Source: Proteobacteria bacterium UBA1844 (lineage in GTDB: Bacteria; Pseudomonadota; Gammaproteobacteria; Steroidobacterales; Woeseiaceae). Taken from it: 64,000 bases of DNA. This document shows, one piece after another, positions 27,678 through 46,550 of this stretch (its first letter is position 1; each line of letters begins with the position of its first letter). The stretch covers positions 11,616 to 75,615 of the forward strand of contig DDIS01000087.1 of NCBI GenBank assembly GCA_002338615.1, written 5' to 3'. The position numbers and the translations under genes were made by a program. Below the pieces are notes generated by a model. The model was not told the origin of the DNA, did no database searches, and saw nothing but the letters and a program-made list of their open reading frames with translations.

Positions 27678-29372
27678 TCAGATACTCGGCAAATTCAGTT
27701 TGTGCTCGGCGGCGCATTGGATGGCCGTTTCGTACCCCGCATCGGCATGTCGCATGACGCCGGACGCTGGATCATTCCACAACACTCGTTTGATCCGCTC
27801 TGCCGCTGCGTCGGTTCCGTCGCATACAATGACCACACCTGCGTGCTGTGAGTAACCCATTCCAACACCACCACCATGGTGGATCGACACCCAAGTGCCG
27901 CCGCCTGCAATATTCAGCATGGCATTGAGCAGAGGCCAATCGCTGACCGCGTCGGAGCCATCTCGCATGGCCTCGGTTTCCCGGTTAGGACTGGCAACCG
28001 ATCCGGAATCCAAGTGATCACGACCCACGACAATCGGTGCCTTGAGCTCGCCGGATTTCACCATGTCATTGAATGCAAGCCCCAATCGGTGCCGATCGCC
28101 GAGTCCGACCCAGCAAATTCGCGCGGGCAAGCCCTGAAAAGCTATACGCTCTCGTGCCATATCCAACCAGTGATGCAAGTGATTGTCATTCGGCATGAGC
28201 TCTTTCACAATTGCATCCGTCTTGTAAATATCTTCCGGATCGCCCGACAATGCGGCCCATCGAAACGGTCCGATGCCACGACAAAACAAGGGACGAATAT
28301 AGGCAGGCACAAAGCCGGGGAAATCAAAGGCGTTAGTGACGCCTAGATTCTTTGCTTCCTGCCGTATGTTATTGCCGTAGTCGACGGTGGGAATTCCGGC
28401 TGCGTGAAATTCCAGCATGGCACGGACGTGAACTGCCATGGACTCGCGCGCCGCTTTGGCAACCTTGTCCGGATTTGATTGCGCTTCACGTCGCCACTTG
28501 GCTACCGACCAGCCAATCGGCAGATAGCCATTGACCGGATCGTGCGCTGAAGTTTGGTCAGTGACAATGTCGGGCATGACCCCCTTGCTGAGTATCTCCG
28601 GAAGCACTTTGGCCGCATTCCCGACCAGGCCGACCGAGACCGCTTCCCCCATATCGGCGGCCGATTCGAGGATACTCAGGGCTTCGTCAAGGCTCGATGC
28701 TTTTCGATCGAGGTAGTGTGTACGCAATCTGAAGTCGATGCGTGACTCGTCGCATTCAATGGCTAGCATACTGAAGCCGGCCATTGTCGCCGCCAGCGGC
28801 TGCGCCCCGCCCATGCCGCCAAGACCGGCCGTTAGTATCCATTTACCCGCCGCATTGCCGCCGAAATGTTGGCGCGCCATCTCGACAAACGTTTCGTAGG
28901 TACCCTGAACAATTCCCTGGCTTCCTATGTAGATCCACGATCCGGCAGTCATCTGCCCGTACATCATCAAGCCGCGACGGTCTAACTCATTAAACGTTTC
29001 CCAATTTGCCCAATGAGGCACCAGGTTTGAATTGGCGATAAGCACGCGCGGCGCATCCGGGTGTGTCTTGAATACGCCGACAGGTTTGCCCGATTGGATT
29101 AGCAGACTTTCGTCACTTTCGAGTGCTCTTAGCGATGCACAAATGTTGTCGAAAGCCTCCCAATTGCGCGCCGCGCGCCCGATGCCACCGTAGACGATCA
29201 GCTCATCCGGCCTTTCAGCAACCTCAGGATCCAGGTTGTTGTGCAACATGCGATAGCACGCTTCAGTTTGCCAGCTCTTACAAGTCAAAACTGACCCGCG
29301 GGGCGCTCGAATGGACCGGCTTTGATCAGTGCGCAGATGCTCTTTCGATAGTGACTCAAGGATTGCAGACAC
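27678..29372 (-). CDS. hutU: Urocanate hydratase HutU
   Basis: A 564-residue enzyme of normal length that hydrates urocanate to imidazolonepropionate, the second step of histidine breakdown. The NAD-binding region [12 protein letters not shown] (about 175-190), the conserved [10 protein letters not shown] near the start and [15 protein letters not shown] near the end are clear. The GTG start has GGAG six bases upstream. It is divergent from hutF-hutH with a HutC-type palindrome between. HutI, the next enzyme, is not in the window. Confidence 0.97.
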
Positions 29373-29517
29373 TGAAATCTCCTTTATTCTTCAATCTGTA
29401 AACGGCCAATCCACCATTGTGAACGAAGCTCCCCGGTGCCGGCGGTCGCGAGCATACTGCCTGGCCACGCTCAGGGCGAGGATATTGCGCCGGTCCAATG
29501 ACCTGAATTGAACCAAA

Positions 29518-29529
29518 TTGTATATACAA
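29518..29529. promoter_or_regulatory. HutC-type operator between hutU and hutF
   Basis: TTGTATATACAA is a perfect 12-base palindrome 29 bases upstream of the hutF start and about 145 bases from hutU. TGTATATACA matches the HutC/GntR-type hut operator as I know it from pseudomonads and enterics. Confidence 0.8.
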
Positions 29530-29557
29530 GTATAGTCCATTCTCTAACCCGAGAACA

Positions 29558-30997
29558 ATGAGTCCGGACAGATTCTGCCTGCCGCCCATGACCGATACAC
29601 GGCCCGCAAAACCGACCGTTGCCAGCACCCTTGCCTGCAAGTACGCGCTCCTGCCCGAAGGATGGGCCAGCGACGTTTGTATCAGCATCGACAAGCAAGG
29701 GGATATCGTGGAGGTAGAGGCCAATTGTCGCCCGCTTCCCTCAAATGCTCTGGCCGGTTATCTCCTGCCCGGAATTCCCAACTTACATTCACATGCGCAT
29801 CAGCGTGCCATTGTTGGGCTTACCGAGAAACCTGGAACGAATGCCGACAGCTTTTGGACCTGGCGCAATTTGATGTACCGTTGCCTCGAACACTTGACAC
29901 CGGATCACATGCTTTCGATCGCATCGATGGCGTACCTGGAAATGTTGAAATCAGGCTACACCAGCGTTGCCGAGTTTCAGTACGTGCATCACGATCACCA
30001 TGGATCGGCCTATGACAATGTCGCGGAAATGTCGTTGCAAACGATACGGGCAGCCAACGATACGGGCATTGCAATCACTATTCTTCCGGTCCTCTATTGT
30101 TACAGCGGGTTCGGGGATCAACCACCACTACCCGAACAACGAAGATTTATTTGTAACATAGACCAGTTTGCGGACATTTTTCAGAATCTTTCCACGGCCA
30201 TCTGCAACGATCGAAACGCGAGCATCGGGATCGCGCCACACTCATTGCGGGCAGTCAATTTCATCGATCTCCGCAACACGCTCGTCAACTGTGCTACGAC
30301 TGCCGCGCGTCCCATACACATACACATCGCGGAGCAGTTGGCAGAAGTCAACGCGTGCATGCATCAATTTGGTTTGGCGCCAATATCCTGGCTGCGGGAA
30401 AATTTTGACCTTGATACCAACTGGTGTCTGGTGCACGCGACGCACGCATCGTTGGTTGAGATCGAATCTATCGCAAAGTGCGGCGCCGTAGTGGGACTTT
30501 GCCCAACCACAGAAGCAAATCTTGGTGATGGCATTCCGGATTTAGCATCACTCATCGAACACAATGGCCGGATCGGGATCGGGTCTGACAGTCAATGCAC
30601 GATCGATCCCGTCGAAGAAATGCGCTGGCTTGAATACGGCCAGCGCCTAAAGAGACTAACGCGCAATGTCTTTGCGACCGAACCATCAAAAAGTACCGGC
30701 CGAGAAGTTTTTGACCGCGTTACGATGGGCGGCGCACAAGCCTGTGGCCGGCAATCTGGTCGTATCGCGCAGGGATATCGTGCCGATTTTCTCGTCGTCG
30801 ATACGAATCACCCGCGCCTGTTCGGGCGCATCGCGGATGATTTTCTCGACAGCTGGATTTTTTCGACCAGCGCTAATCTGGTGCGACATGTTTTTGTCGG
30901 TGGTAAACAGATAATCCGAGATTACAGGCACCCCGGTGAAACGAAAATAAACGCCCGATTTCAAGAATCAATGCTCGATTTGATGGATCACCTATGA
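29558..30997 (+). CDS. hutF: Formimidoylglutamate deiminase HutF
   Basis: A 479-residue amidohydrolase that converts N-formimino-glutamate to N-formyl-glutamate and ammonia, the five-step hut route. The metal motif HSHAHQRA (about residue 77-84), the HIHIAEQ box, HATH and the GSDSQ...DP metal site are present. The next Met at codon 11 is possible, but the first has GAGAA upstream. The stop overlaps hutH (ATGA). Use of HutF implies a HutG deformylase elsewhere, since none is seen here. Confidence 0.95.
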   Translation: MSPDRFCLPPMTDTRPAKPTVASTLACKYALLPEGWASDVCISIDKQGDIVEVEANCRPLPSNALAGYLLPGIPNLHSHAHQRAIVGLTEKPGTNADSFWTWRNLMYRCLEHLTPDHMLSIASMAYLEMLKSGYTSVAEFQYVHHDHHGSAYDNVAEMSLQTIRAANDTGIAITILPVLYCYSGFGDQPPLPEQRRFICNIDQFADIFQNLSTAICNDRNASIGIAPHSLRAVNFIDLRNTLVNCATTAARPIHIHIAEQLAEVNACMHQFGLAPISWLRENFDLDTNWCLVHATHASLVEIESIAKCGAVVGLCPTTEANLGDGIPDLASLIEHNGRIGIGSDSQCTIDPVEEMRWLEYGQRLKRLTRNVFATEPSKSTGREVFDRVTMGGAQACGRQSGRIAQGYRADFLVVDTNHPRLFGRIADDFLDSWIFSTSANLVRHVFVGGKQIIRDYRHPGETKINARFQESMLDLMDHL

Positions 30998-32526
30998 ATA
31001 ATCCAAGATTGCAATTGCGCCCTGGACATCTGTCGCTGTCTGATCTTAGAAAAGCTAATCGAGAGCCGGTCTCTGTCAGTTTGAATCGGGAGACGTGGCA
31101 ACGAATCCGTGCATGCCGTCAGGTCGTGGACGACGTAATAGCTAATGGTGATGTAGCCTACGGAATCAACACCGGCTTCGGGCGCCTTGCACAAACCACG
31201 ATCGACATTGGCAACCTTGCCAAGCTACAGGAAAACTTGCTGCTGTCGCACGCAGCTGGGGTCGGTCAACCGATGCAAGATCGGGTGATTCGTCTGGCCA
31301 TGCTGCTCAAGTTGAATTCGCTCGCTCGCGGCTATTCCGGGGTTAGCTGTGAGGTGGTGGAATTGCTCGCCGGTATGCTGAACAACCGGATTTACCCAGT
31401 GGTACCGGGAAAAGGCTCGGTGGGTGCCTCAGGAGACCTGGCGCCTTTGGCCCACCTCAGCTTGCCGTTGATCGGACTTGGACACGTACGCGTCGATGAC
31501 CGTATTCAGGACAGCGTCACCGCCTTACAGCAGGTTGGCCTGCAGCCTATATCTTTGCGGGCCAAGGACGGGCTTTCGTTGTTGAACGGCACACAAATAT
31601 CTACAGCTCTGGCGTTGTCCGCCCTTTTCGACGCTGAGATGAATGCCGACGCGGCGTTCATTGCGGGCAGTATGACCGTTGAAGCCACTTTGGGCAGCCG
31701 GTCTCCGTTTGACGCCGGCATCAGCGAGATTCGTGGCCTGCACGGCCAAATCGAAGCGGCACGCATTTTTCGACTCATTCTCGACGTCTCGGAATTGGGA
31801 CATTCGCACCAGGCATGTGATCGGGTGCAGGATCCCTACTCGTTGCGTTGCCAGCCGCAAGTCATGGGTGCGTGCCTGGATCAACTACGACATGCGGCAG
31901 GCATTCTCGAGATTGAATCCAATGCCGTGTCCGACAATCCCCTTGTTTTTCCTGATCGCAAGGTAATTCTGTCCGGCGGCAACTTCCACGCAGAATCGGT
32001 CGCCATGGTGTCCGACAACATTGCGCTCGCGGTCGCTGAGATGGCGGCGTTGTCCGAACGCCGCCTTGCCCTGCTGATTGACTCGCACCTTAGCCAATTG
32101 CCTCCTTTTCTGGTTGCGGACGCCGGACTCAATTCCGGTTTCATGATTGCGCAAGTTACGGCGGCAGCGCTCGCCAGTGAAAACAAGTCACTCGCTCACC
32201 CCGCCTGTGTCGATAGTTTGCCGACTTCGGCAAATCAGGAGGATCACGTGAGCATGGCGACCTTCGCCGCCCGACGGCTATTTGATATGAACGAAAATTC
32301 CAGTTATATCATCGGGATTGAATTGCTGGCGGCAGCTCAAGGCCTCGATTTCAGACGCCCATTGCGCTCATCGGATACAATCGAAAGTGCCCACGCGACG
32401 ATCAGATCAGTGGTGCCAACTTGGGATCGCGATCGCTTGATGCATTCCGATATCGAGGCAGCTTTTCGACTCATCAAAGACGGAGCGTTTGACTCGTCAG
32501 TGAGTCATTATATCGATGCACGTTGA
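30994..32526 (+). CDS. hutH: Histidine ammonia-lyase HutH
   Basis: A 510-residue lyase that removes ammonia from L-histidine to give urocanate. The Ala145-Ser146-Gly147 triad that forms the MIO cofactor lies in GSVGASGDLAPLAHL, and the family segments YGINTGFG and SANQEDHVSM are intact. Normal length. Its start overlaps the hutF stop. The lipoprotein gene starts about 25 bases after its stop, so the three genes look like one operon under the HutC palindrome. Confidence 0.97.
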   Translation: MNNPRLQLRPGHLSLSDLRKANREPVSVSLNRETWQRIRACRQVVDDVIANGDVAYGINTGFGRLAQTTIDIGNLAKLQENLLLSHAAGVGQPMQDRVIRLAMLLKLNSLARGYSGVSCEVVELLAGMLNNRIYPVVPGKGSVGASGDLAPLAHLSLPLIGLGHVRVDDRIQDSVTALQQVGLQPISLRAKDGLSLLNGTQISTALALSALFDAEMNADAAFIAGSMTVEATLGSRSPFDAGISEIRGLHGQIEAARIFRLILDVSELGHSHQACDRVQDPYSLRCQPQVMGACLDQLRHAAGILEIESNAVSDNPLVFPDRKVILSGGNFHAESVAMVSDNIALAVAEMAALSERRLALLIDSHLSQLPPFLVADAGLNSGFMIAQVTAAALASENKSLAHPACVDSLPTSANQEDHVSMATFAARRLFDMNENSSYIIGIELLAAAQGLDFRRPLRSSDTIESAHATIRSVVPTWDRDRLMHSDIEAAFRLIKDGAFDSSVSHYIDAR

Positions 32527-32551
32527 CACGAAAGCCATTAGGAGAACACTC

Positions 32552-33796
32552 GTGAATAAATCACTATTGATTGGTGTCGTGTTGCTGGCTGTAGCCGCCT
32601 GCAACCGAGGCGATGGACCATCGGCCTCGGCGACTGTTGGTATGCAAATGCTGACATCGCCGGCAGGTAGCGGCAGCGCAGGGCTGCACTTGGCGAAGAC
32701 CATGGACGGAGACGTCGTCATGAGCTGGTTGGAACCCGAAGGCACGGGGCACGCATTGAAGTTTTCGGTTCTCGCTGAATCACATTGGCAGGTGCCACGA
32801 ACTGTCGCTCAAGGCGACACTTGGTTTGTTAATTGGGCAGATTTTCCATCGGTCGTTCCGATTTCTCATGATCTGTGGGCGGCACATTGGCTGAAAAAGC
32901 AGCCAGGTGGGCGATACGCGTACAATGTCGCCATTTCCCTATCACAAGATAGCGGTCGGACGTGGAGTGCACCTGTTACGCCACATACTGACGGTACAGC
33001 GACAGAGCACGGATTTGTAAGTCTTTACCCCGTGGCTGGCGGTGTCGGAACACTTTGGCTTGACGGTCGAAACATGATCGAGGACCAACCTCATTCCGAA
33101 CACAGCCTGGGCGACGAATTGCAAGGCATGACTTTGCGGTCCGCCACCCTCACTGCCGATCTAGGTCTCAGCGACGAACAGCAAGTTGATTCACTAACCT
33201 GCGATTGCTGCCAGACGGATGTGGGAATCGGCGCGGATGGAGCCATTGCCATCTATCGCAATCGGGATGCAGGCGAGATACGCGACATTTACGTGTCACG
33301 CTCCGTGAACGGAAAATGGCAAGAGCCATTGCGGGTATCGAATGATGGTTGGAAAATTGCCGGCTGCCCGGTGAACGGCCCGGCAATCGATGCCAATGGC
33401 AAGAACGTTAGTGTCGCTTGGTTTACGGCCGCAAACGATCAGTCTGCCGTGCTAATTGCGCGTTCCGAAAATGCTGGAATCAGTTTTTCCGATCCGATCA
33501 CCATCGATAACGAAAAACCGTTGGGACGAGTTGACGTGGTGCTCTTGAGCAACGGCGACACGGTCGTCAGCTGGTTGAGCAAAAGTGCTGGCAATGATGC
33601 GAAAATCAATGCACGACTGGTGACCCCTGAAGGAAAAGTCGGCAGCGCCGTCATCATTGCGGAAACAACGGCATCACGTACATCTGGCTTTCCGCAAATG
33701 ATATCGGTCGGTGCTGATTTGCTGTTTGCATGGGCCGAAGTATCCGACAATCAAAGCCAAGTCGTTACGGCGAGGATTCCGGTTGAAAATTTATGA
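32552..33796 (+). CDS. BNR/sialidase-fold lipoprotein with Cys cluster in the hut operon
   Basis: A 414-residue lipoprotein: GTG start with AGGAG seven bases upstream, signal peptide and lipobox VAAC (Cys about 17). The body has repeated Asp-box-like turns (SQDSGRTWS, RSENAGISFS) of a six-bladed propeller. A cluster SLTCDCCQTD (Cys about 217, 219, 220) interrupts it, with another Cys at AGCPVN; such a cluster may bind copper or another metal. It is not a known hut gene, yet follows hutH closely. No catalytic sialidase residues are evident. Confidence 0.75.
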   Translation: MNKSLLIGVVLLAVAACNRGDGPSASATVGMQMLTSPAGSGSAGLHLAKTMDGDVVMSWLEPEGTGHALKFSVLAESHWQVPRTVAQGDTWFVNWADFPSVVPISHDLWAAHWLKKQPGGRYAYNVAISLSQDSGRTWSAPVTPHTDGTATEHGFVSLYPVAGGVGTLWLDGRNMIEDQPHSEHSLGDELQGMTLRSATLTADLGLSDEQQVDSLTCDCCQTDVGIGADGAIAIYRNRDAGEIRDIYVSRSVNGKWQEPLRVSNDGWKIAGCPVNGPAIDANGKNVSVAWFTAANDQSAVLIARSENAGISFSDPITIDNEKPLGRVDVVLLSNGDTVVSWLSKSAGNDAKINARLVTPEGKVGSAVIIAETTASRTSGFPQMISVGADLLFAWAEVSDNQSQVVTARIPVENL

Positions 33797-33827
33797 TGAA
33801 CTGACAGCCACTGCGAACACTGACGGA

Positions 33828-34559
33828 TCAATCCTCCGGCATCGTACCGATCAGTTCGTAGCTTGACCCGGGATGACTTAGCTCGGAAAGACTGACCGGC
33901 CTGCCACCTGACCAGGTTCGCCGTCGAATCACCAAGCACGGTTCATTTTCCTGCATTCTGAGGAGTCGACGGACTTTTGGCGCCGGATGGTCAGCGCGAA
34001 TGACATGCTCGGAGGTATATAACGGTGCCACCTTCGTCAGGTAGACGTTCGGCGTGATTTTAGTAAAATCCATTTTCAGGTAATCGGGTGCCAATCTAGG
34101 GCACACATAGCGATCCTCCAATTGAATTGGCTGACCGCTCTCCATATGCAAGATAAGTGAGTGAAATAATTTATCACCGGGCCGAACCTCAAGCCGTTCT
34201 GCCTGCATCTGATCCGCTGTCACCTCTTTTAGAACAACGACCTTCGCCGAATGCACGTGTCCTCGCGCTCGGATTTCATCGGCAATATTGCGAACCCGCA
34301 ATACGTCCGAGTGCGGCCTTGAATCAGCGACGAAAGTACCCACACCGGCCAATCGAATGACGTAGCCGTCGTCGGTCAGTTCCCTGAGTGCCCGGTTTAC
34401 CGTCATGCGCGACACGCCGAGTGTTTCCACCAACTCATTTTCTGACGGCACCCGGTCATTCGGTTTCAATCGACCATCGCCAATACGTTCCAAAACATGC
34501 GCTTTTACCTGCTGATAGCGCGGCTCAGCTCGATTCATGGAAATGATCTTTTGACTCAT
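33828..34559 (-). CDS. hutC: Histidine utilisation repressor HutC
   Basis: A 243-residue GntR/HutC-family repressor. The N-terminal winged helix (about 14-75) has RVPSENELVETLGVSRMTVNRAL. The C-terminal UTRA ligand domain (about 95-240) has HSLILHMESGQPIQLEDRYV. Urocanate is the known inducer of HutC. It converges on the lipoprotein gene and lies at the end of the minus-strand series with the PepSY and TonB-receptor genes. It should bind the three TGTATATACA-type palindromes listed here. Confidence 0.93.
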   Translation of the reverse strand: MSQKIISMNRAEPRYQQVKAHVLERIGDGRLKPNDRVPSENELVETLGVSRMTVNRALRELTDDGYVIRLAGVGTFVADSRPHSDVLRVRNIADEIRARGHVHSAKVVVLKEVTADQMQAERLEVRPGDKLFHSLILHMESGQPIQLEDRYVCPRLAPDYLKMDFTKITPNVYLTKVAPLYTSEHVIRADHPAPKVRRLLRMQENEPCLVIRRRTWSGGRPVSLSELSHPGSSYELIGTMPED

Positions 34560-34751
34560 AGTGTATGACTTCCACAGTCTATCTTTTTGGACGTGACCAG
34601 CTGGTTATCCTTACGCCACTAACACATCATAAATTGCCGTTCGCGTCAACGTTGGATCGCGGACCGCGCGTCTAACTACGTGCTCTAAAGAACACGAGGG
34701 GTGTTGGGAATTACCACGCCTTCCGGTCGAGCAGAAATTATTTGGACAAGC

Positions 34752-36605: not shown

Positions 36606-37353
36606 GACGTACCTTGCTACCTTCATCCGCGGCATTGATGGGGCCTGCCACAGGTCGTTTACGTTTCAACGCATAGACCAGTAACCAAACTCCGGTCAGT
36701 CCAAACGAAATTCCAAAAAAAGAAGCCACACGCAACAAATTATTGTTCAAATCCGTACGACTTTCATAATCCATGATGTGAAACATCCACAGAAAATCGT
36801 AGACCCTCCAGAATGTGTGTCGCCGACTTACGAGTTCGCCCGTTGACGGGGAAATATAGAATGTGGTTTGAATGGCATCGTCAAACCGAACTTGCCAAAG
36901 CGGCAGGGGCCGAGCCTGAATCTCGCTCGGTCGGTCGCTGTCATCACGTAACAGATTAACGTCGGATAACGCGCCATCCCCTGCATAGTAGTATCTGGCA
37001 AGTTCTGCGACTAATTCGACTGGGATTGGAGATACTGGAACACCACTAGTGGCATACAACAATACGGGTTCCGCCGAATCTTCGATGACCACGTAGTACG
37101 GCACACCAATTCGGCTTACCAGATCAATTTGAGTTGCCCGCGGATACCTATTGACGATCGACTTAATCAAATACAGATCTTCCACGTTGCCAAGAAAGGG
37201 TTCGTCGATATTTTTGACCAACGGGTCGCCATGAATAAAATCAATATCCAGCACTGCCATGTAAGCACCGCTCAGCATCCAAAACGTCACCTGAATACCA
37301 ATTACCAACGCGATCCACTTATGCGTCTTCCTTGCGAGAAAGGGTGCCTTCAT
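36580..37353 (-). CDS. PepSY-domain membrane protein
   Basis: A 257-residue protein with a first membrane helix (about 12-34), a periplasmic PepSY region with WQVRFDDAIQTTFYISPSTGEL, and a last helix (about 205-230) after FHIMDYESRTDLNNNLLR. It is a paralogue of the N-terminal half of the next gene, with the same HKWI...MLSG and HIMDY segments. The conserved His residues may bind haem or metal. It overlaps the PepSY-NqrF gene by 26 bases, so the two products probably form one redox complex. Confidence 0.85.
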   Translation of the reverse strand: MKAPFLARKTHKWIALVIGIQVTFWMLSGAYMAVLDIDFIHGDPLVKNIDEPFLGNVEDLYLIKSIVNRYPRATQIDLVSRIGVPYYVVIEDSAEPVLLYATSGVPVSPIPVELVAELARYYYAGDGALSDVNLLRDDSDRPSEIQARPLPLWQVRFDDAIQTTFYISPSTGELVSRRHTFWRVYDFLWMFHIMDYESRTDLNNNLLRVASFFGISFGLTGVWLLVYALKRKRPVAGPINAADEGSKVRHDLVPKIS

Positions 37354-37447: not shown

Positions 37448-37463
37448 GTCGCGATCAATGCAT

Positions 37464-40148
37464 CTATTCCCAAATATACGTAAATCTGACGTAGCCACGG
37501 CGGCCGATGAGATCGTAGGTCATAGTGTCGGTATTTCCGTCTGTCCATGACGCAACGTACGGAGCGCCTTCATCGAAGATATTGTCGATACCAACCGCAA
37601 CATTCGCACTATCCGAAATTTCATAGGAGCCTTGAATATAATGGTACATAACGGTATCGATTTCGGAACCAATGGCTGGTGGCACTGCATTGAAGTCATC
37701 ACCACTCCCAATCACTTGGATCGCATAGTTTGCCGCCCACTTCTGGCCCTGTAAATTCATTGACACATACGACTGCTGCCTCGAATATCCGCCATTTCCA
37801 CCACCTATATGCCCATCTTTCACGATTGGGTCGGCGCCATCAAAAGGCGTTATCTCGTACTCATTTAACAGCGTTGATTGCCAGTCGAACGTCGTGGCGA
37901 TGCCTTTGATGTCGACGTTATACCGCAGGCCGAAATCGACGCCATTGATCGTTTCCTTGCCGGTATTGACCGGTTGGGCCGACAGGAAATTGACATCACC
38001 GCTGAGAGCACTTCGAGTGAAGTGATCGTCGTTGCAAAACTGATGATCCAAATTGGGCGTGTTGTAGCATACGTTGAGCTTAGTTGAGCCCGGGATCTGA
38101 GTTATCGCGTTCTGAATTTCAACATCGTAATAATCCAGGGTAACCGACAGCCCATCGACAAATGACGGCTGGAATACAAGTCCCAGAGTAAACGTATCCG
38201 CAGTCTCCGGATTCAAGGCCGTATTACCACCCACGGTGGTAAGAATGGTATTGCCGAGCTGGGTGAAACCCGGGGGCACGCCATCGGCTTGACAGTTTAT
38301 GTACACAACACTGGTTGGCGGCAAAGCAGACCATCCGGAACAAGGATCTGTCGTCGTCAGGTTGCCTTCCGCAACGCCTCCGAAAAGCTCGTTCACATTT
38401 GGCACTCGAAATGACGTTGCATAGTTCGCCCGCAGTTTAAATGAAGGCACTACCTGCCAGTTCAGTCCGATCTTGTAATTGTCAGTGCTACCGAAAGTCT
38501 CGTAGTCGGAATAGCGAAACGCAAGATCAAGGTCAAGGGCTTCTGTAAACCGCATACCGGATAGCAATGGCAGTCCGAGTTCAATGTAAATCTCGTCGGT
38601 CTTTACCGTACCTGATATTGGATCCGCTGCATTCGTGTTAGCGGAGCCAATCACCACCAGCGAGTCTGGATCTCGCCACCCCTTGTCCTGCCGCGACTCG
38701 ACGCCAGCGGCCATCATGACCGGACCCGCCGGTATATCGAACAGCTGGCCCGAAATATTTGCCGACAGGCTTTCCTGTTCGTTGCCACCGGTACCGTTCA
38801 TAGTAAAAAGAATATAGTCGAAAACCTCTGGGGTAATGTCGCCATACCCAAGAATGTCTGCGCAGGGAATCCCACCGCTTCCACAGACTGCGGTATCCAA
38901 CGTCTCGTTGAGTCGCACTAAATTGACAATATTAGTCGAGCCGTCGGTGCCCGTATTGCGACCCAAATTGTAAGTAACATCCCAACTCCAGGCATCGTTG
39001 ATCTCACTTTGAATCCCGACAACGATGCGATAGGTATTTGTTTCCTGGAAAAAATTACGATCGCCGCTCTCCGCCATGCGGCGGCGCTCAACAAATAGAT
39101 CCTGACCTGTCGGATTCGTCGGATGGCTCGCGGGAATAGGAATGTTGTTGACCGTCGTCGGAGAAGCCGGCTGACCTGTTTGACGGTTGGTAAACATGAG
39201 TTCGCCAATAATCTCGACTCTGTCGGTCAGCTCATAGTTACCGAACGCTGAAAATGACAATCGCTCCAGCGGATTTACTGCATTGAACGATTGGTTGTAA
39301 TCAAAGTTGTCGATCAGAGGGTCATACAGATGCCAGGCATCTCCGTCTCCATTCGGGTCTTGGTTAAAGTTTATTCGTGTTCCATCGGGCAACAGTGCGC
39401 GTCCGCCGATGGTGCTACTGCTGCCAACGCAAACCAGCGCCCCATTTACTTCGGACTTCGGACAATCGACGCGGTCCGGCATGAAAACTTCGCCGGTATC
39501 CTGATAACTCACGCTGGCCATCAAGCTGCCGCGATCGTTGGTGACGCCCCAGGTCAGATCAAGCTGTACTTCCTCGCCGTCACCATCAAATGCGGCGCCC
39601 ACTTTCGCTGTGGTCTCGACACCTTCAAATCGCTGTTTGGTGATGATATTGACGACACCTGCAACCGCATCTGCGCCGTATACGGCTGACGCGCCATCTT
39701 TCAGCACCTCAATTCGCTCGATAATCGATACAGGAATCATACTGAGATCGACCGCGGTATTGGCGCCAGTACCGCCGTTGACCAATCGTCGGCCGTTTAG
39801 CAAGACCAGCGTTCGATTGATCCCCATGCCACGCAAGTTGATTTGTGGCGTGCCCCATCCGTTAGACACCCAATACGCGGACGTTTGATTGCCTCCCGAG
39901 CCAGCCGATGACGGCATGCGTTGCAGTAGCACTTCAAGTGACGAAATGCCGGTCGCAGCAATCTCCGGCGCAGTGAGGATTGTCACCGGCCCGACGCTAT
40001 TGAGATCTTTACGAACGATTCGACTTCCCGTGACAACAACCTCCTCCACGGTGTCGGAATCTTTCTCCTGTGCTCCTGAAATAGTTGGAACGGCAAGAAC
40101 CAGCAGACTGCCGCAGGCCAACATCCAAGAAGTTGAATAATGTTTCAT
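37464..40148 (-). CDS. TonB-dependent receptor linked to the hut/PepSY cluster
   Basis: An 894-residue outer-membrane receptor. Signal peptide (about 1-26), a TonB-box-like VEEVVVTGSRI, plug domain (about 40-160) with RTLVLLNGRR and YGADAVAGVVNIITK, then a 22-strand barrel ending in VRFTYIWE. It belongs to the large family of uncharacterised TonB receptors common in marine gammaproteobacteria and sphingomonads. A HutC-type palindrome lies about 90 bases upstream. Substrate unknown; a histidine-containing peptide or metal complex is the guess from context. Confidence 0.92.
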   Translation of the reverse strand: MKHYSTSWMLACGSLLVLAVPTISGAQEKDSDTVEEVVVTGSRIVRKDLNSVGPVTILTAPEIAATGISSLEVLLQRMPSSAGSGGNQTSAYWVSNGWGTPQINLRGMGINRTLVLLNGRRLVNGGTGANTAVDLSMIPVSIIERIEVLKDGASAVYGADAVAGVVNIITKQRFEGVETTAKVGAAFDGDGEEVQLDLTWGVTNDRGSLMASVSYQDTGEVFMPDRVDCPKSEVNGALVCVGSSSTIGGRALLPDGTRINFNQDPNGDGDAWHLYDPLIDNFDYNQSFNAVNPLERLSFSAFGNYELTDRVEIIGELMFTNRQTGQPASPTTVNNIPIPASHPTNPTGQDLFVERRRMAESGDRNFFQETNTYRIVVGIQSEINDAWSWDVTYNLGRNTGTDGSTNIVNLVRLNETLDTAVCGSGGIPCADILGYGDITPEVFDYILFTMNGTGGNEQESLSANISGQLFDIPAGPVMMAAGVESRQDKGWRDPDSLVVIGSANTNAADPISGTVKTDEIYIELGLPLLSGMRFTEALDLDLAFRYSDYETFGSTDNYKIGLNWQVVPSFKLRANYATSFRVPNVNELFGGVAEGNLTTTDPCSGWSALPPTSVVYINCQADGVPPGFTQLGNTILTTVGGNTALNPETADTFTLGLVFQPSFVDGLSVTLDYYDVEIQNAITQIPGSTKLNVCYNTPNLDHQFCNDDHFTRSALSGDVNFLSAQPVNTGKETINGVDFGLRYNVDIKGIATTFDWQSTLLNEYEITPFDGADPIVKDGHIGGGNGGYSRQQSYVSMNLQGQKWAANYAIQVIGSGDDFNAVPPAIGSEIDTVMYHYIQGSYEISDSANVAVGIDNIFDEGAPYVASWTDGNTDTMTYDLIGRRGYVRFTYIWE

Positions 40149-40707
40149 TTTTCTTTACCCCCCGACTGGCTATTGCCAGTACCAATTTGAGAGTGCCGCC
40201 TGGGCACCGTTCGATCAAACTGTTGCCACCTATATGGACTTGTCTATACAGGTCCATACCTCCGGAATATACCGGGCACTTGCTCAATTTGCAATATCGA
40301 CAAATTCCAAGCGCCGAAAATGACAGTTTTGCGAAAAAATGTTATCTATCTAACTGATTATAATGCGCTTTCTTAAACTATTGGGCCATCCCTTGCTGGT
40401 CTCCGAGCTGACAAGCCTTGATGAACTGTGGGAATTTACGAACTCCCAAACGACGTCGAATCTCCGTACAAGGAAAGTCCCGTAGCCGGATTTGTAAATT
40501 TTCCACTGATCGCCCGTCATCGTAGCGACAACTTCAACCAATGCCGTTTGATTACCGTGATAGGGATTGACGATTGGTACAATCGAAAGAGCAATGCTAA
40601 TGAACGAAAACCGCGTAAGGCTCATTAGAGTTTCGTTTGCTCAATTTCAAAGCACGCGATCCCTATCGAAAAAGGGAGTATCACCGACCATAGACTCTCA
40701 TCCTGAG
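40149..40707. other. 559-base stretch without a gene, holding the receptor promoter
   Basis: A 91-codon minus frame (40350-40625) has no ribosome binding site and a composition unlike a real protein. The part next to the receptor holds the HutC-type site. It separates the metallopeptidase gene from the receptor, so the receptor probably has its own promoter. Confidence 0.5.
40236..40255. promoter_or_regulatory. HutC-type operator upstream of the TonB receptor
   Basis: Core TGTCTATACA (40241-40250) differs by one base from the hut palindrome. Flanks extend the dyad to GGAC-n-TGT-n4-ACA-n-GTCC over 20 bases. It lies about 90 bases before the receptor ATG. Confidence 0.65.
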
Positions 40708-41676
40708 CTATTCCGCGTTCGTAGCTCTTGCAGCTTCAAATCTGACGATTTTGTCGCCGTAAAGGGGATCGTAATAATGTCCGCCCTCCAGGTAGTCCTG
40801 GTTCCAGATGCGTTGCCCGGTCGATGTCACTCGGTACAAATAAGGGGACAGGTGAAGCCTCTCTTTGTGCCATCGGCCCTCTTCACCCGACGCGATATCA
40901 GTGCCGCTGCCATACAGCATCAAACCGCCTTCTGCGCGCACTTCGTGCTGCGGATCAATTTCTCTGTATTCGTGGCTGACATTGATGAGCTTGTGTCCCA
41001 ACTCATGTGCGAGCACTCCCCGGTTCGGGTCGCTCCTTGTCACGGTGATTACGCCGCGAAGCCGTCTGGGCATGTCCCGATAGCTGTAGCCGGGAAATGA
41101 CAGACCACCGGTCGTTATCGTGCGCAGGGCCCAGGTTCGCTCGTCCAGCTTCTCATAGAAAGACATAAACACGCCCTGCAGAACCACCAGGTACACCGTA
41201 CGCGCGTTGTTCTTTTGTACCTCTACAATGGATTCAAATGCCAATAAAGCTTCTTTTGACAGGCCAGATCGCTGGCGCAGACTGTCCTCGTACATATTGA
41301 CGTACTGCCCGCCAGGTGTCGTACTTTCGATATCGTTGGCCCGAATCTCTAAAAACGATGGATCGATATTGCCCGACTTGATCCAAAGCAACTTAAGCTG
41401 CACATCGGCAAAGGCAAAGATCGCTTTCGCTCTCCGAAACTCGTCAAGCAGACCGGCCAACGAAAACCGGTCTGTGAATGCTTTATCAAGATTCGACGGA
41501 AAATAAATGCCGATGTCTGCCGTTGCTATGTCCGGCCGGAGGTCGCTGTTCAGTTGTTGAACAGCATCGGTGTCGACTAATGTCCAATCCACGGGCTCTG
41601 CCGCTGCCATCGGTCCGCTCAATATCGTCGAGAACAATGTGCACAGCAAAATACGCTCAAATTCTAGCATTCGCAT
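40708..41676 (-). CDS. Secreted zinc metallopeptidase-like protein
   Basis: A 322-residue exported protein (signal about 1-25, ending AAAEP). A zinc motif HELGHKLINVSHE gives His224, Glu225, His228 and a further His235, near the metzincin pattern but with one extra residue before the third His. GGLMLYGSG downstream could be the Met-turn. The rest is not recognised. The start may be ATG 41676 or 41670. It is last in the minus-strand set starting with the S9 peptidase, so it probably works outside the inner membrane on peptides. Confidence 0.65.
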   Translation of the reverse strand: MRMLEFERILLCTLFSTILSGPMAAAEPVDWTLVDTDAVQQLNSDLRPDIATADIGIYFPSNLDKAFTDRFSLAGLLDEFRRAKAIFAFADVQLKLLWIKSGNIDPSFLEIRANDIESTTPGGQYVNMYEDSLRQRSGLSKEALLAFESIVEVQKNNARTVYLVVLQGVFMSFYEKLDERTWALRTITTGGLSFPGYSYRDMPRRLRGVITVTRSDPNRGVLAHELGHKLINVSHEYREIDPQHEVRAEGGLMLYGSGTDIASGEEGRWHKERLHLSPYLYRVTSTGQRIWNQDYLEGGHYYDPLYGDKIVRFEAARATNAE

Positions 41677-41784
41677 CCGAGTAGGTTTCCAAGCATTGAA
41701 ATCTTTTCCAGACAATCGACACGTCCGCGATCGGCATAGTCTGTCATTCGTCTTCGAATCTGGCTATCGGCGTGCCAGCCCACA

Positions 41785-42615
41785 TCATTTTACTTCAAAT
41801 GTGACAGTCGCCCAGTTCGAAACATAATCGGCATCTGGATCGTCAACCTTTTGCATGTGAACCAATGCAATATACCAGACCGCCTTATTGCTGAGCAGGA
41901 ATCGCGCACGACCGTCGTTATCTGTACGTAAATTGTAAGAATTCATATGATTGCCGGCGTCGTCATGACCATGGAAGCCCTCGTAGCTTGCCCGAACAAT
42001 TTGGTTCGCGATCGGTTTGCCTTCGTACAAAACCCTAAAGCTCAATTCACTGCCAAACTTCAAGTCGTACGGGTTCTGATCCAGAATAATTTCGACCGGA
42101 TAGCCAAGCAATTTCGAATAGTCGTCTGACCTCTTTCCTCCAACCTGAACAATTGTTCGAACATGTTTCGAGTATCGTTCACGCACTTCGGTCAACGTGT
42201 TTTCTTTTTCAAATACACGCAAGGTATCCAGGATTCCCTCATGCTCCAGGTACTTGACGAAGTCTTCTGGCGTCATGGTAATTATACTGGCTCGTGTCGA
42301 TACACCTATGACATAAGTGCCAGGATCGCCCGCGCGGTATTTGAGATATGAAGAATTTTCATCGTCGTACCAATTGTCGTCCGTCGGGTGCGTAATTCGC
42401 CCGTCAGCCGCAATACTGACATCCGCCATCCTATCTCGGCTGATACTGTTTTCGCTCTTGTCGAACGTTCCGTTAATGAGACGAACCACCTGATCCGAAT
42501 TTGCAGTCACGAAGTACTTCGGCGCTTTTAGAAACATCTCGTGCGCTGTCGCACTTGTCGTCAATAACGCGGCCATTAGACACGTGAAACTACCGGCTTT
42601 TACTCGAGATCCCAT
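41785..42615 (-). CDS. DUF4198 periplasmic protein, copy 1
   Basis: A 276-residue exported protein: signal about 1-24, mature start HEMFLKAPKYFV, with the His at the very N-terminus as in metal-binding DUF4198 proteins. The C-terminal Ig-like part contains LRTDNDGRARFLL and ends WATVTFEVK. The family lies next to Ni/Co permeases in many genomes and is regarded as a metal-handling periplasmic partner. AGGAG precedes the start. About 45 bases separate it from its paralogue, the DUF4198 gene upstream on this strand. Confidence 0.82.
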   Translation of the reverse strand: MGSRVKAGSFTCLMAALLTTSATAHEMFLKAPKYFVTANSDQVVRLINGTFDKSENSISRDRMADVSIAADGRITHPTDDNWYDDENSSYLKYRAGDPGTYVIGVSTRASIITMTPEDFVKYLEHEGILDTLRVFEKENTLTEVRERYSKHVRTIVQVGGKRSDDYSKLLGYPVEIILDQNPYDLKFGSELSFRVLYEGKPIANQIVRASYEGFHGHDDAGNHMNSYNLRTDNDGRARFLLSNKAVWYIALVHMQKVDDPDADYVSNWATVTFEVK

Positions 42616-42660
42616 AATTTTTACTCCTGGACGTTTTGCTATTTGAATATTTGACTCAAT

Positions 42661-43527
42661 CTATCTAATTTCGAAGGTGATCGTTGACCAGTTCGACTCA
42701 TAGTCCGCGTCGTCATCGACTATTTTTTCCATGTGAATCATCTGAATGTACCATTTGTCTTTCTTCGTAATCTTGAAAGACGCGCGGCCATTCTCATCAG
42801 TTCGCAATGAGTACTCGCTTAGATCAGGGATACTGGCGTGCTCTGGCTCTGCCCTGGACGCGTAGCTCACGAACACATTCTGATCCTTGAGAGGCTTGCC
42901 ATCGAACAGAACAACGAAAGACATTTCGTCACCAACAGCAACTGAGCCCGGATTCTGCTCGACGAATATTTCGGCCTTGTATCCGAGGGGTTGCTTGAAG
43001 TCGTCGGTCAACGGCTTGCCGACCTGGAATATCCCTTTTGCGTGCTTCGTATAGCGCTCGCGTATTGTTTGCAACTCATTGCTTGCCCGGTACGCTGCCA
43101 GTGCGTCCGTCATGCCTTCGTGTTCCAGATATTCCTCAAACATCTCGGCAGGCAGTGCAATGTAGTCGGGATTCGCAGCGACCCCGCCGAGCCCCGTTCC
43201 TTCCTTATCTGCGAATACCTTGATGTATGTGTTTTTGTATTTCGGGTTCGAGTCGACGTCAGACACTTCGTCATTTGGCGGCGTTTTGCGCGTGCCGTCC
43301 ATGACGAGACTGATATCTCGACACATTTTTCGAGTGATTGAGTAGCCACTCTCGTGATATGTCCCGTTTCTCAATATCAGGAAGTTGTCCGTTCCAGGAC
43401 GCATTTCGTATAGATCCGCGATCAGATACGTTTGATGAGCTTGGGCACTTGCGGCTACCAATAGCGCTAGAAATCCAACCAGAGCGGTACCAGTGCTGAT
43501 AGACGATCGTACGAACTTGCATTTCAT
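42661..43527 (-). CDS. DUF4198 periplasmic protein, copy 2
   Basis: A 288-residue paralogue of the preceding entry: signal about 1-30, mature start HQTYLIADLYEMRPG, shared middle FEEYLEHEGM and RERYTKHAKG, shared end NWSTITFEIR. ATG 43527 has GGAG eight bases upstream; a GTG three codons earlier is possible. Both copies end in the same Ig-like module (LRTDENGRASF). The N-terminal His after signal cleavage could act as a metal brace, which is inference. Confidence 0.82.
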   Translation of the reverse strand: MKCKFVRSSISTGTALVGFLALLVAASAQAHQTYLIADLYEMRPGTDNFLILRNGTYHESGYSITRKMCRDISLVMDGTRKTPPNDEVSDVDSNPKYKNTYIKVFADKEGTGLGGVAANPDYIALPAEMFEEYLEHEGMTDALAAYRASNELQTIRERYTKHAKGIFQVGKPLTDDFKQPLGYKAEIFVEQNPGSVAVGDEMSFVVLFDGKPLKDQNVFVSYASRAEPEHASIPDLSEYSLRTDENGRASFKITKKDKWYIQMIHMEKIVDDDADYESNWSTITFEIR

Positions 43528-43541
43528 TTGTTTCACTCCAA

Positions 43542-44444
43542 TTAGTAATGAGGTGGCAGGGACGGCTCCGAACTATTGGGCGGTTCGTGAGAATGATCAC
43601 TTCCAGGGCCATGGGTGTGACCATTTTCCTCACCGCTCGTGCTTCCCACGTGAGATCCGTCGGGATTATGGCTGTGCCCCTGATCCAGCATATCCAGATG
43701 CGCGTGTGAGTGATCGTCGCGACTGATTGGAAAGCTATCCGCGTGCGCCGTGTGGCCGTAGCCATGTAATTGCATTGCCAGCAACGCCACTCCTGCCACA
43801 ATCAGACCCGCGTTGGCGACTTTACTGAAGACTAAAAACTGCCCACGGCGTTGCCAGATGCGCAATAAGCCCCACATTATAACAAGCGCAATAATCTGTC
43901 CGACTTCGACGCCCAGATTGAATGAGAGAATGTGCCATAACATCGCGCCGTCCTCGGCTACCGGCAGCTGCTGCAGTCTTGTCGACAGCCCGAAGCCGTG
44001 AACAAGCCCAAACAACAAAACCATCAGCAGCAAATTGGGCGACGCTGTATTGAGATACTTTCGGAATCCATCAAGATTCTCGAACCCTTTGTATACTACC
44101 GTCAATGCGATAAACGCATCGACCAGGTAAAAATTGGCTGTTATTTGCAGATAGGTTGCACCGACCAATGTAATTGTATGGCCGATCGTGAACGCACTGA
44201 CATACTTGACGATATCAATAAATCGTGTAAGGAAGAACATGACCCCGAATAGAAACAGGAGATGGTCAACGCCGGTTATCATGTGTTCTGCACCGAGACG
44301 GAAATATTCGAGATTTCCCCCATCAATCATGCGTTGCCGGGATTCTTCGGAAATTCCGTGCGCAAAAAGCGCTCCGCTCGTAAGCAGACCCACGACAAAT
44401 ATCCAAGCGCGACTAGAAAACGTTGACCTGCATCCAACTCTCAT
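43542..44444 (-). CDS. HupE/UreJ-type permease with His-rich tail
   Basis: A 300-residue protein: exported N-terminus (mature start HGISEESRQ), then about six helices with the HupE/UreJ_2 motifs HMITGVDHLLFLFG, FTIGHTITL, and GLVHGFGLS and FNLGVEVGQ. The C-terminal 70 residues are rich in His (HSHAHLD, GHSHNPDGSH, HTHGPGSDHSHEPP). Relatives move Ni or Co. The start at 44444 has AAGGGA upstream. It lies 19 bases after the S9 peptidase gene and 14 before DUF4198, so the set is one operon. Confidence 0.88.
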   Translation of the reverse strand: MRVGCRSTFSSRAWIFVVGLLTSGALFAHGISEESRQRMIDGGNLEYFRLGAEHMITGVDHLLFLFGVMFFLTRFIDIVKYVSAFTIGHTITLVGATYLQITANFYLVDAFIALTVVYKGFENLDGFRKYLNTASPNLLLMVLLFGLVHGFGLSTRLQQLPVAEDGAMLWHILSFNLGVEVGQIIALVIMWGLLRIWQRRGQFLVFSKVANAGLIVAGVALLAMQLHGYGHTAHADSFPISRDDHSHAHLDMLDQGHSHNPDGSHVGSTSGEENGHTHGPGSDHSHEPPNSSEPSLPPHY

Positions 44445-44463
44445 ATCATATCCCTTACAATCA

Positions 44464-46473
44464 TTAGTTGGCATAGCCCGTTTCTCGCGACGAAAGGTAA
44501 CGCTGAAACCAGCTAAGCATGCGGAGCATTGAGTCCGTTTGTTGGGTCGCAGACCACATTGAACGGGAATGGCCCACCCCGCTGTAGATTATGAACTCCG
44601 ACTCGACGTTGTATTGTTTCAAGCCACGATAGAACTCCCAGCATTGCCCAATCGGATCTATGTCGTCGTTTTCGGCACAAATAAGCTGTGTGGGAGTCGT
44701 AATATTTCGCACGTGCGTGACCGGCGATACGTTAGTGAAATAACTCACGTTGTCGTACAAATTCCCAAGCAGTGCCCGGTCATAGCGATTCACACTTGGC
44801 GACTCCGTGCCGTATTCGCTGACCCAATTAGTGACAGGGGCGCCGGATACTGCCACTTTGAATCGGTCAGTCTGTGTTACCGCCCAGGCCGCCATGTACC
44901 CACCATAGGACCATCCACCGATTCCCAGCCGATGGGGATCAGCTATTCCCTCGGCAACAAGGTGGTCCACGCCGAAGATGACATCTTTAAAATCACCTCC
45001 GCCCAGGTCATTTCGGTTCATAACAAGAAAATCATAATCACGGCCGGTAGAACCACGGATATTGGGTTCGAGTACCGCATATCCCCTGCTTACCAGAAGT
45101 GCAGCCCACGAGGGCCGAAACCCGTTCGCCCAGCGCGCACTAGGACCACCATGAACGTGCACGATCAATGGAAACGGTGTGCTGTTGTCACCTTTGCTGG
45201 GAAGGTATAGCGCGGCTTCGATATTGAGTCCGTCAAAGCTTTCGTACTGAATGATTTTGGGTACGGGCCAAACAACCTCGTCAGCCAAGTCAGTATTAAT
45301 TTTTGTCGCTTGTCGGTACGGACTGTCCGAATCAGAAATCCAGATTTCATGCGGCATGTTGTACGTTCCACCAACCAGCCCAAGAAAATTCTCGCCAACC
45401 ACGATGTCGGTACCCGGCGAAACTGGCGGATCGATACGGCGCTTAATGAATCCGTCCAGATCGATATCGTAAAGCAGCGATTCGAATCCTTCGGCAACTA
45501 CCGCAATCACTGACCTGTTATCACGCCATTTATAACTCTGTATCTTTCGATCTATAGTCGATTCGGTCAGATTAAGCAGTTGACTATCGCGCATCCTGAC
45601 AACCACCAGATCAAAGGGCTCCGGGCCACTTTCGCGCGCCGCGATAGCTGACACGAATTCTCCATTCGGTGATACTTCGACGTTCGAGATTTCACGATCG
45701 GGGCGCCAAAGTTCGTGAAACTCGCCATCAGCGATGTCGAACAGGAACAGACGATCATGATCCAGTTCGCTGTATAGATCGCGCGATGCGGACAATACAA
45801 TTGATTCTCCGTTCGGGGCCCAACGAATGGACGACATGCGCCAGTCACCTTCGGATAATTGTCTCGCTTTACCGGTGGTAACATCAAACACAGATAATTG
45901 CTGATATTTCCCGTTGACGATTGTCAGATTTTCACTGACTTCGGATTCCCGAATCCCATCCCCTGCTACAGCCGGATCGACGTTTTCAACGCTGGCATCA
46001 GCGATATAAGCGAGCAGGTTTTTTCCTGGTGACCATTCATACGCCAAAATGTCGGTAGCGCTGGCGAACATTTTTTCGGCTTCGCCGCCGATCATCGACA
46101 ATCTGAATATTTCCGTTTTTCCATCTCTGTCGGAAATGAACGAAAGACATTTAGTGTCTGCGCACCATCGCGGCTGCGCGTTGATCTTGCCCGTCGTCGA
46201 AAGCCGCCTACTGCTACCGCTCGTCCGGTCGAGGGTCCAAATACTCTGCGTTCCGCCGGAGAGATTTGCAGATTCAGACACGACGAACGCAATTTCGTTG
46301 CGCGCAATCGAATACTGTAAATCCGAGGGGACTCGCAATTCGGAAAAAATCCTCGGGTCGAGTATTTTGGACACCTGCGCATTGGCGGCGTACGGCATAG
46401 TACAAACAGCTAGAAGAATGCACAGGCGCGACGGTGCCCTACTTTTTGCATCACAAATGCGAAATTCGCGCAT
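44464..46473 (-). CDS. Secreted S9 prolyl-oligopeptidase-family peptidase
   Basis: A 669-residue exported serine peptidase (signal about 1-32, ending ANAQ). The N-terminal two-thirds is a beta-propeller with repeated SPNGE/WAPNGE turns. The C-terminal hydrolase has nucleophile Ser522 in GWSYGG, an Asp near 604 (AENDD) and His635 in SGVGHS. Dipeptidyl- or acylaminoacyl-peptidase activity is likely. GAGGGGG precedes the start. It is first in its operon, with a HutC-type palindrome about 65 bases upstream. Confidence 0.92.
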   Translation of the reverse strand: MREFRICDAKSRAPSRLCILLAVCTMPYAANAQVSKILDPRIFSELRVPSDLQYSIARNEIAFVVSESANLSGGTQSIWTLDRTSGSSRRLSTTGKINAQPRWCADTKCLSFISDRDGKTEIFRLSMIGGEAEKMFASATDILAYEWSPGKNLLAYIADASVENVDPAVAGDGIRESEVSENLTIVNGKYQQLSVFDVTTGKARQLSEGDWRMSSIRWAPNGESIVLSASRDLYSELDHDRLFLFDIADGEFHELWRPDREISNVEVSPNGEFVSAIAARESGPEPFDLVVVRMRDSQLLNLTESTIDRKIQSYKWRDNRSVIAVVAEGFESLLYDIDLDGFIKRRIDPPVSPGTDIVVGENFLGLVGGTYNMPHEIWISDSDSPYRQATKINTDLADEVVWPVPKIIQYESFDGLNIEAALYLPSKGDNSTPFPLIVHVHGGPSARWANGFRPSWAALLVSRGYAVLEPNIRGSTGRDYDFLVMNRNDLGGGDFKDVIFGVDHLVAEGIADPHRLGIGGWSYGGYMAAWAVTQTDRFKVAVSGAPVTNWVSEYGTESPSVNRYDRALLGNLYDNVSYFTNVSPVTHVRNITTPTQLICAENDDIDPIGQCWEFYRGLKQYNVESEFIIYSGVGHSRSMWSATQQTDSMLRMLSWFQRYLSSRETGYAN

Positions 46474-46538
46474 AGAGCTGCCCCCTCGATCCGTACGTCG
46501 ACAACATTGCCGTGGACGGCGAACTTATCTGTACAAAC

Positions 46539-46550
46539 CTGTATATACAA
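46539..46550. promoter_or_regulatory. HutC-type operator upstream of the S9 peptidase
   Basis: CTGTATATACAA holds the same perfect TGTATATACA core (46540-46549) as the hutF site. It is 66 bases upstream of the peptidase ATG. A partial TGTACA lies next to it at 46530-46535. Confidence 0.75.

Follow-up and report, generated by a model that had tools for sequence, protein, structure and literature searches.

A second hut gene set interleaved with import and redox genes

We analyzed a stretch of 64,000 nucleotides (hereafter the window) from contig DDIS01000087.1 of the draft genome of Proteobacteria bacterium UBA1844, in which genes for histidine utilization (hut) are interleaved with genes for a TonB-dependent receptor and two PepSY proteins. 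On its left side hutU (27678-29372, minus strand), encoding urocanate hydratase, is divergent from hutF (29558-30997, plus strand), encoding formimidoylglutamate deiminase, which is followed by hutH (30994-32526, plus strand), whose product is a histidine ammonia-lyase with the ASG motif. The end of hutH is overlapped by the gene of a BNR_2 lipoprotein carrying a CDCCQT (CDCC) motif (32516-33796, plus strand), beyond which lies hutC, the gene of the histidine-utilization repressor (33828-34559, minus strand). The four hut products were identified by NCBIfam equivalog cut-offs, which all of them reach, HutC with 294 bits (TIGR02018, cut-off 220) and HutU with 961 bits (cut-off 375). An alternative assignment of HutU as thiourocanate hydratase, of the ergothioneine/thiourocanate pathway, was rejected (695 bits against a cut-off of 930).

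Three genes on the minus strand form what we term the cassette: PepSY-NqrF, a PepSY_TM domain fused to an NqrF-like NADH/FAD/2Fe-2S reductase (34752-36635), a small PepSY-like membrane protein (36580-37353) and the TonB-dependent receptor (37464-40148). The PepSY part of the fusion scores barely above the Pfam cut-off (PF03929, 28.9 versus 28.8), and the small protein stays under it (20.2 versus 28.8). Residues H18 and H198 as well as C291, C297, C300 and C331 of PepSY-NqrF are invariant in the aligned relatives, as are H11, H41, H179 and H192 of the small protein when it is aligned with 78 relatives. With a PepSY_TM domain, invariant membrane histidines and an NADH/FAD/2Fe-2S module, PepSY-NqrF has the features of PepSY transmembrane reductases. 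Among the matches listed in a second-look fold search the NqrF part appears, and none was seen for the PepSY part.

Beyond the receptor a further minus-strand run encodes an exported protein with a HELGH motif (40708-41715), two DUF4198 proteins (41785-42615 and 42661-43536), a HupE/UreJ_2 permease with a His-rich tail (43542-44474) and an exported hydrolase of the S9 prolyl-oligopeptidase type (44464-46473). A preliminary description of this DNA had reported the hut genes to be intermixed with the receptor, the PepSY pair, HupE, the DUF4198 pair and the Cys-cluster lipoprotein, and each of them is indeed found in its place. Of the two exported peptidases it had named, the S9 enzyme stands; the second has only its HELGH motif and a weak resemblance to M6 peptidases that lies under the threshold (20.8 versus 110.8 bits), and no Pfam match.

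To the left of hutU lies a copper island with genes for RND efflux, a cation-efflux protein, cytochrome c, CopB, a PcoA-type oxidase and a Cus-type two-component system. The RND-type run (outer-membrane efflux protein, CusB/HlyD-type adaptor and RND pump; 11194-16877, plus strand) may serve copper or another metal. CopB (20040-21188, minus strand) and the PcoA/CopA-type multicopper oxidase (20885-22945, minus strand; TIGR01480, 923 bits) precede the response regulator and sensor kinase of the heavy-metal (Cus-type) system (22948-25036, plus strand). Inside the island, between the efflux and the CopAB genes, is the gene of a HutD-family protein (18130-18744, minus strand; PF05962, 138.4 bits, cut-off 25).

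The window hutHUFC genes and this hutD are a second, paralogous hut set that adjoins the copper island. The genome, a draft of 4.23 Mb (93.8% complete, 4.4% contamination), carries hutI, hutF and a further hutC on contig C31 and hutU and hutH on contig C117, so that hutU, hutF and hutH each have a second copy. No hutI or hutG lies beside the window set; hutI is found on C31, and for hutG no genome-wide search was made. The HutC proteins of the window and of C31 are 51% identical. The hutU paralogue on C117 (G000:C117:3-1374; L023, L024) matches window hutU in two separate pieces, at 66-79% identity, and starts at the contig edge, so that this copy may not be whole.

HutC-type operators in the window and in the genome

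Three palindromes of the HutC type stand in the window. The first, an exact TGTATATACA (29519-29528, extended form TTGTATATACAAGTATAGTC), lies between the divergent hutU and hutF; the second, TGTCTATACA, has one mismatch and is found some 93 bp upstream of the receptor start (40241-40250); and the third, again an exact TGTATATACA (46540-46549), lies upstream of the S9-HupE-DUF4198-HELGH run. The preliminary description had placed palindromes before these three units, and they are the sole matches to TGTATATACA at up to one mismatch within the 64 kb, all of them upstream of gene starts. In 100 shuffles of the window the mean count was 0.58, and three were reached in two shuffles.

The whole genome holds five exact copies of TGTATATACA, two of which are those of the window. 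One of the others sits at the divergent hutI and hutF starts of the second hut locus on C31, one is intergenic between divergent genes with no evident link to histidine (G000:C134:15915; L002) and one, on C150, is inside a gene. Copies of TGTCTATACA on C105 and C212 are inside reading frames. Sites of the forms TGTTTATACA and TGTGTATACA also occur in the genome, and this account covers those of the forms TGTATATACA and TGTCTATACA. The three window sites are well-supported predicted targets of HutC and would make up a HutC regulon.

The cassette in relatives is flanked by hut and copper genes

Among 196 genomes searched within the order of the window, matches reach the PepSY part of PepSY-NqrF in six, which are the window's own, G117, G192, G169, G151 and G160; two of the six are cut by contig ends, and the remaining matches listed cover the NqrF part only. 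Behind the cassette of G151, G160 and G192 lies hutC, whose product is 63-68% identical to HutC of the window, and window HutC is 62-71% identical to cassette-adjacent HutC in four relatives. The cassette of G151 moreover adjoins genes for a heavy-metal P-type ATPase, a multicopper oxidase, an outer-membrane efflux protein and a MerR regulator. In G117 and G169 an ECF sigma factor and FecR are found in place of hutC. In a search of the whole class 23 of 370 genomes pass a threshold of 1e-100. The cassette is uncommon, since besides the window only G391 scores like a family member in that search.

A larger set of relatives was obtained by scanning named genomes with the PepSY alignment, and the best 80 of at least 578 confirmed loci were kept. 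They include L060 and L064, Woeseiaceae drafts on the same contigs as G169 and G151 and both in the genus of the window. Receptor, PepSY protein and PepSY-NqrF lie on one strand in 66 of the 80 loci, and in L062 and L063 the cassette is accompanied by both hutC and hutU. This bears on the view that a mobile copper island has landed beside stray hut paralogues, the neighbours being there by chance. Such an event would fit the duplicate nature of the hut genes in the window and the 4.4% contamination of the draft. Against it speak the recurrence of the cassette next to hutC in G151, G160 and G192 and next to both hutC and hutU in L062 and L063, and the position of all three operators before gene starts; we regard it as very improbable.

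Neighbours were counted at 35% identity or more, and 20 NqrF loci, all from the order of the window, served as a control. Hut genes occur in the flanks of 32 of the 80 cassettes, copper genes in 49, either in 64 and both in 17. None of the 20 control loci has hut or copper genes in its flanks; a partial CusA-like match in control locus L155 (29% identity over 0.35 of the query) falls under the thresholds. The counts shift with the settings, to 28 for hut and 47 for copper with greedy frames and to 34 and 53 at 28% identity. NCBIfam confirms the representatives of the CusA/CzcA pump, the PcoA oxidase, the copper ATPase, CueR and N-formylglutamate deformylase. Those of CopC (69 versus 95) and CopD (92 versus 195) are under its cut-offs and those of CopB and DUF411 have no NCBIfam match; these four names and CusB, whose representative was outside the NCBIfam comparison, rest on reading by eye. 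Counting confirmed copper families only leaves 47 of the 80 loci, and 36 remain without CusA/CzcA, whose substrate may be a metal other than copper.

The other genes of the window travel with the cassette far less often. Relatives of HupE or DUF4198 are present in 4 of the 80 loci; HupE adjoins the cassette in L073 and L124, and a relative of the second DUF4198 protein does so in L073. As a separate observation, in L114 and L139 another TonB receptor gene lies close to the cassette, and the gene of a DUF4198 protein comes after it. These counts make nickel or cobalt, which the preliminary description had linked to HupE-type proteins, a weak candidate for the metal, and genome context favours copper. 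A system for nickel-, cobalt- or iron-histidine, with HupE as the inner-membrane permease, could be argued from the HupE gene and the two DUF4198 genes behind an exact HutC-type site in the window, from L073 and L124, and from PepSY clusters elsewhere that, according to PMC8238504, are tied to iron and to DUF4198. With HupE or DUF4198 in only 4 loci against copper genes in 49, we consider it quite improbable.

Much the same holds for the peptidases. Relatives of the HELGH protein adjoin the cassette in 2 of the 80 loci (L082 and L124), and no relative of the S9 peptidase was found in any of the 80 at the thresholds used, apart from one weak partial match in L058 (29% over 79 residues). The peptide-release step that the preliminary description had envisaged is weak on this evidence. 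An outer-membrane importer for histidine or His-rich peptides, to which the copper neighbours would be incidental, is nevertheless in keeping with the HutC sites, the hut linkage and the exported S9 and HELGH proteins of the window. A HutC-controlled transporter of this sort has been predicted for Caulobacterales and Sphingomonadales (PMC5343134). Such an importer would not account for the PepSY chain with its NADH supply, for the copper genes at 49 of the 80 cassettes or for the CruR-like leader peptides described below, and the peptidases are rarely beside the cassette. Free histidine, moreover, is small enough for porins. We regard this explanation as clearly unlikely.

HutC sites upstream of the receptor

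We then searched the 80 loci with the pattern TGT[AC]TA[TG]ACA, taking the interval between 800 bp upstream and 200 bp downstream of the point where the receptor frame begins; 18 loci have no assessable upstream region. The pattern was defined on the window and on two relatives that recur among the 80, L064, which is not assessable for the receptor, and L072, which is counted. A scan of the loci of the G-numbered genomes with TGTATATACA at up to one mismatch had given no match. The site is present upstream of the receptor in 40 of the 62 assessable loci, compared to 6 occurrences in the 1.09 Mb that make up the rest of the same loci, and 15 of the 40 site-bearing loci have no hut gene in their flanks.

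The presence of HutC was examined for the genomes of 50 of the 80 loci, 43 of which have a HutC over the cut-off. The site is found in 27 of 40 assessable loci from genomes with HutC and in none of six from genomes without it (p 0.003, uncorrected for kinship); five of these six are from Lysobacter or Luteimonas. The predicted HutC regulon joining histidine breakdown to the receptor and PepSY-NqrF, as the preliminary description proposed it, is conserved by these measures, with hut genes beside 32 of the 80 cassettes and the site in 40 of 62 upstream regions.

Cys-cluster leader peptides ending in RPP

Many of the relatives have a small exported-looking frame before the receptor, whose Cys cluster is separated by 35-40 residues from an RPP at its end (FRPP, LRPP, ERPP or DRPP). 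For this feature 61 upstream regions were assessable, and 19 of the 80 loci were dropped. A narrower first expression (C..C and a terminal RPP) matched 13 of the 61 upstream regions, in which 67 frames were considered, against 15 of 2643 frames elsewhere. The final expression matches 28 of the 61, against 13 of 3609 other small frames in the loci, and by eye most of these 13 are peptides of this type encoded at other places in the loci. Taking site and leader together, 40 of the 61 upstream regions have the site, 28 the leader, 14 both and 54 at least one. No such leader is found in the 93 bp between operator and receptor in the window.

Further Cys-cluster/RPP peptides resembling the leaders occur elsewhere in L080, L087, L100, L103, L108, L117, L118, L120, L130 and L137, possibly members of a broader class of metal-sensing leaders.

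For a fresh sample we searched two further groups, the family to which a Lysobacter genome belongs and the order that includes a Caulobacter genome. These searches returned 42 loci, from which 15 already seen and one partial locus were dropped and 26 kept. The site is present in 10 of these, the leader in 12 and either in 16; for the 22 loci with a PepSY signature downstream the numbers are 9, 12 and 15. The Lysobacter side (14 loci, 6 of them with the site) accounts for all 12 leaders, and the Caulobacter side (12 loci) has sites in 4 and no leader. The fresh loci repeat the finding at a lower rate. Conservation of the linkage in relatives, on which the preliminary description had staked its proposal beforehand, is seen in the 80 loci and in the fresh ones too.

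The leaders recall CruR of Bordetella, in which a CXXC motif senses copper and a RAPP sequence presumably arrests the ribosome, with a receptor gene and a PepSY_TM gene downstream (PMC9426467). They bring up a general importer of chelated copper, for which HutC would be only a nutritional cue and histidine would not be the ligand carried. CrtA, described by Hachmi et al., 2026, is an importer of copper chelated by small molecules, and PepSY_TM genes follow it in over 75% of loci (PMC12914433); the copper genes beside 49 of the 80 cassettes and the leaders in 28 of the 61 upstream regions agree with a system of this kind. It leaves unexplained, however, the hut genes beside 32 of the 80 cassettes and the absence of the operator from all six assessable loci without HutC, and we consider it rather unlikely.

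A candidate importer and reductase for copper-histidine

The account that we prefer, and whose chances we place at about even, is a HutC-controlled system for the import and reduction of a histidine-complexed metal, most likely copper(II)-histidine. Its parts differ in strength. The case for a HutC regulon, built on sequence comparison, is strong; copper is the likely metal; and the copper-histidine complex is our best inference for the ligand carried, as predicted from the gene context. Import and periplasmic reduction of copper(II)-histidine would be the simplest joint account of the copper context, the histidine repressor, the surface receptor and the NADH-fed membrane reductase.

In such a system, urocanate would release HutC from the operator when histidine is present, and the receptor would carry the copper-histidine complex into the periplasm. 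PepSY-NqrF and the small PepSY protein may then pass electrons from NADH through FAD and the 2Fe-2S cluster to haem, reducing Cu(II) to Cu(I) and freeing the histidine, which the Hut enzymes would burn while copper-handling proteins buffer the copper. In loci with a leader, a surplus of copper would turn the operon off, and it would run only at high histidine and when copper is not high. In the leaderless window the neighbouring island may take care of copper, and the HupE/DUF4198 arm, under the same type of operator, may handle a further metal.

A more specific form of this proposal is tentative, and we consider it possible rather than probable: a two-input importer in which HutC would sense histidine at the promoter and a ribosome-stalling leader would, by analogy with CruR, sense copper in the same transcript, so that the receptor and its NADH-driven cupric reductase would be made only with histidine plentiful and copper scarce. 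Sensing of copper by the leaders is argued by analogy only, because the nine compared with Pfam fail the family DUF2946.

Several observations weigh against the copper-histidine interpretation. Both search expressions were widened in the course of the work, that for the site to TGT[AC]TA[TG]ACA after TGTCTAGACA was seen in G151 and G160 and that for the leader after CxC leaders were seen. Strict HutC sites are missing from 22 of the 62 receptor upstream regions; of the 40 assessable loci from genomes with HutC, 13 lack the site. In 9 loci (Lysobacter, Pseudoxanthomonas, Luteimonas and Rhodanobacter) the site adjoins a divergent hutC and may serve that gene. None of nine leaders compared matches DUF2946, nor does a tenth peptide (L064). 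Sixteen of the 80 loci, some of them short contigs, have neither hut nor copper genes, and in L052 and L055 the receptor has an ECF sigma factor and FecR as neighbours, a change of regulator that hints at another inducer. The loci are phylogenetically non-independent, the control loci come from one order only, and copper genes near the cassette could reflect a shared mobility of metal islands. In the fresh sample the site rate is lower (10 of 26), and 4 of the 26 loci lack a PepSY signature downstream. The receptor model, finally, resembles siderophore and B12 receptors at the level of fold only. We had tried to read the ligand from this AlphaFold2 model (pLDDT 80.5), which matches enterobactin, B12, haem and other receptors at a query TM-score of about 0.46-0.57; this approach was rejected as uninformative.

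Relation to known systems

Copper uptake across the Gram-negative outer membrane is poorly characterised according to PMC12914433, and the ligands of outer-membrane copper receptors are mostly unknown. A repressor with a known inducer (urocanate, a product of histidine) over a receptor-reductase cassette in copper clusters names a ligand that can be tested. If the copper-histidine proposal is true, it would tie amino-acid catabolism to metal acquisition, and the hut regulon of several groups of proteobacteria would reach as far as the cell surface. The two-input importer would amount to a bacterial route dedicated to Cu(His)2, whose ligand is burned as food, and would offer a simple readout for copper sensing by leader peptides outside DUF2946.

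Among the known systems closest to the cassette is the CruR-CrtA(BfrG)-PepSY_TM operon of Bordetella pertussis, in which a TonB receptor is likewise followed by a PepSY_TM gene in a copper setting; many of the relatives also share with CruR an upstream exported leader with a Cys motif and an end of the R-P-P kind (RAPP in CruR). Unlike that operon, the cassette has HutC-type operators, its PepSY part is made up of two proteins, one fused to NqrF, and the leaders compared fail DUF2946. No hut link is mentioned for the Bordetella operon in the accessible texts. None of 17 PDB sequence matches of the receptor at E 1e-5 is a CrtA chain, although the presence of a CrtA entry there is unconfirmed and no direct comparison was made.

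The preliminary description had held that the genes mixed with hut had never been counted as hut genes. For the receptor this needs correcting, since a prediction by Leyn et al., 2016 puts a TonB-dependent transporter under HutC control in Caulobacterales and Sphingomonadales. In L098, L111, L122, L131, L135 and L136 (Caulobacter, Sphingomonadaceae and alike) hutC adjoins the cassette in the same manner, and we infer that these are the same receptors. The accessible part of that paper mentions no PepSY proteins, copper genes or leader peptide and, beyond the two orders, no TonB transporter under HutC. In Pseudomonas aeruginosa, sites of HutC stand before the siderophore receptor genes fpvA and fpvB (PMC12977541).

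The combination of a PepSY membrane domain with an NADH-binding domain is shared with the PepSY-like transmembrane reductases (Meheust et al., 2021) and the FoxB-type reductases (as cited in PMC12914433). The presence of DUF4198 in the neighbourhood is a known association of PepSY reductases that recurs here. Elsewhere these reductases are described with ApbE flavinylation and iron, whereas here they are tied to HutC and copper genes. The window set resembles a canonical proteobacterial hut locus in having hutH, hutU, hutF and hutC with TGTATATACA-type operators, and differs from it in being interleaved with import genes and in having no adjoining hutI and hutG. In the open-licence part of PubMed Central we found no paper joining HutC, a TonB receptor, a PepSY reductase and copper. 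The parts themselves were known before.

Further features of the locus

The BNR_2 lipoprotein was considered as a marker of the system and rejected as too common, with matches in 7995 of 8000 scored candidates. Its CDCCQT motif is identical in the three aligned proteins from the window, L061 and L062. In the window its gene follows hutH, and in L061 and L062 a HutC-type site separates it from the receptor gene, which points the opposite way.

By eye, genes resembling those of a tyrosine recombinase (2400-3314), RadC (3919-4572) and ParB (7832-9319) lie in the region 965-9319 of the window, and this gene set beside the copper island suggests an integrated mobile element. Remnants of an insertion-sequence transposase are seen, also by eye, at 46800-47110, at the right edge of the cluster.

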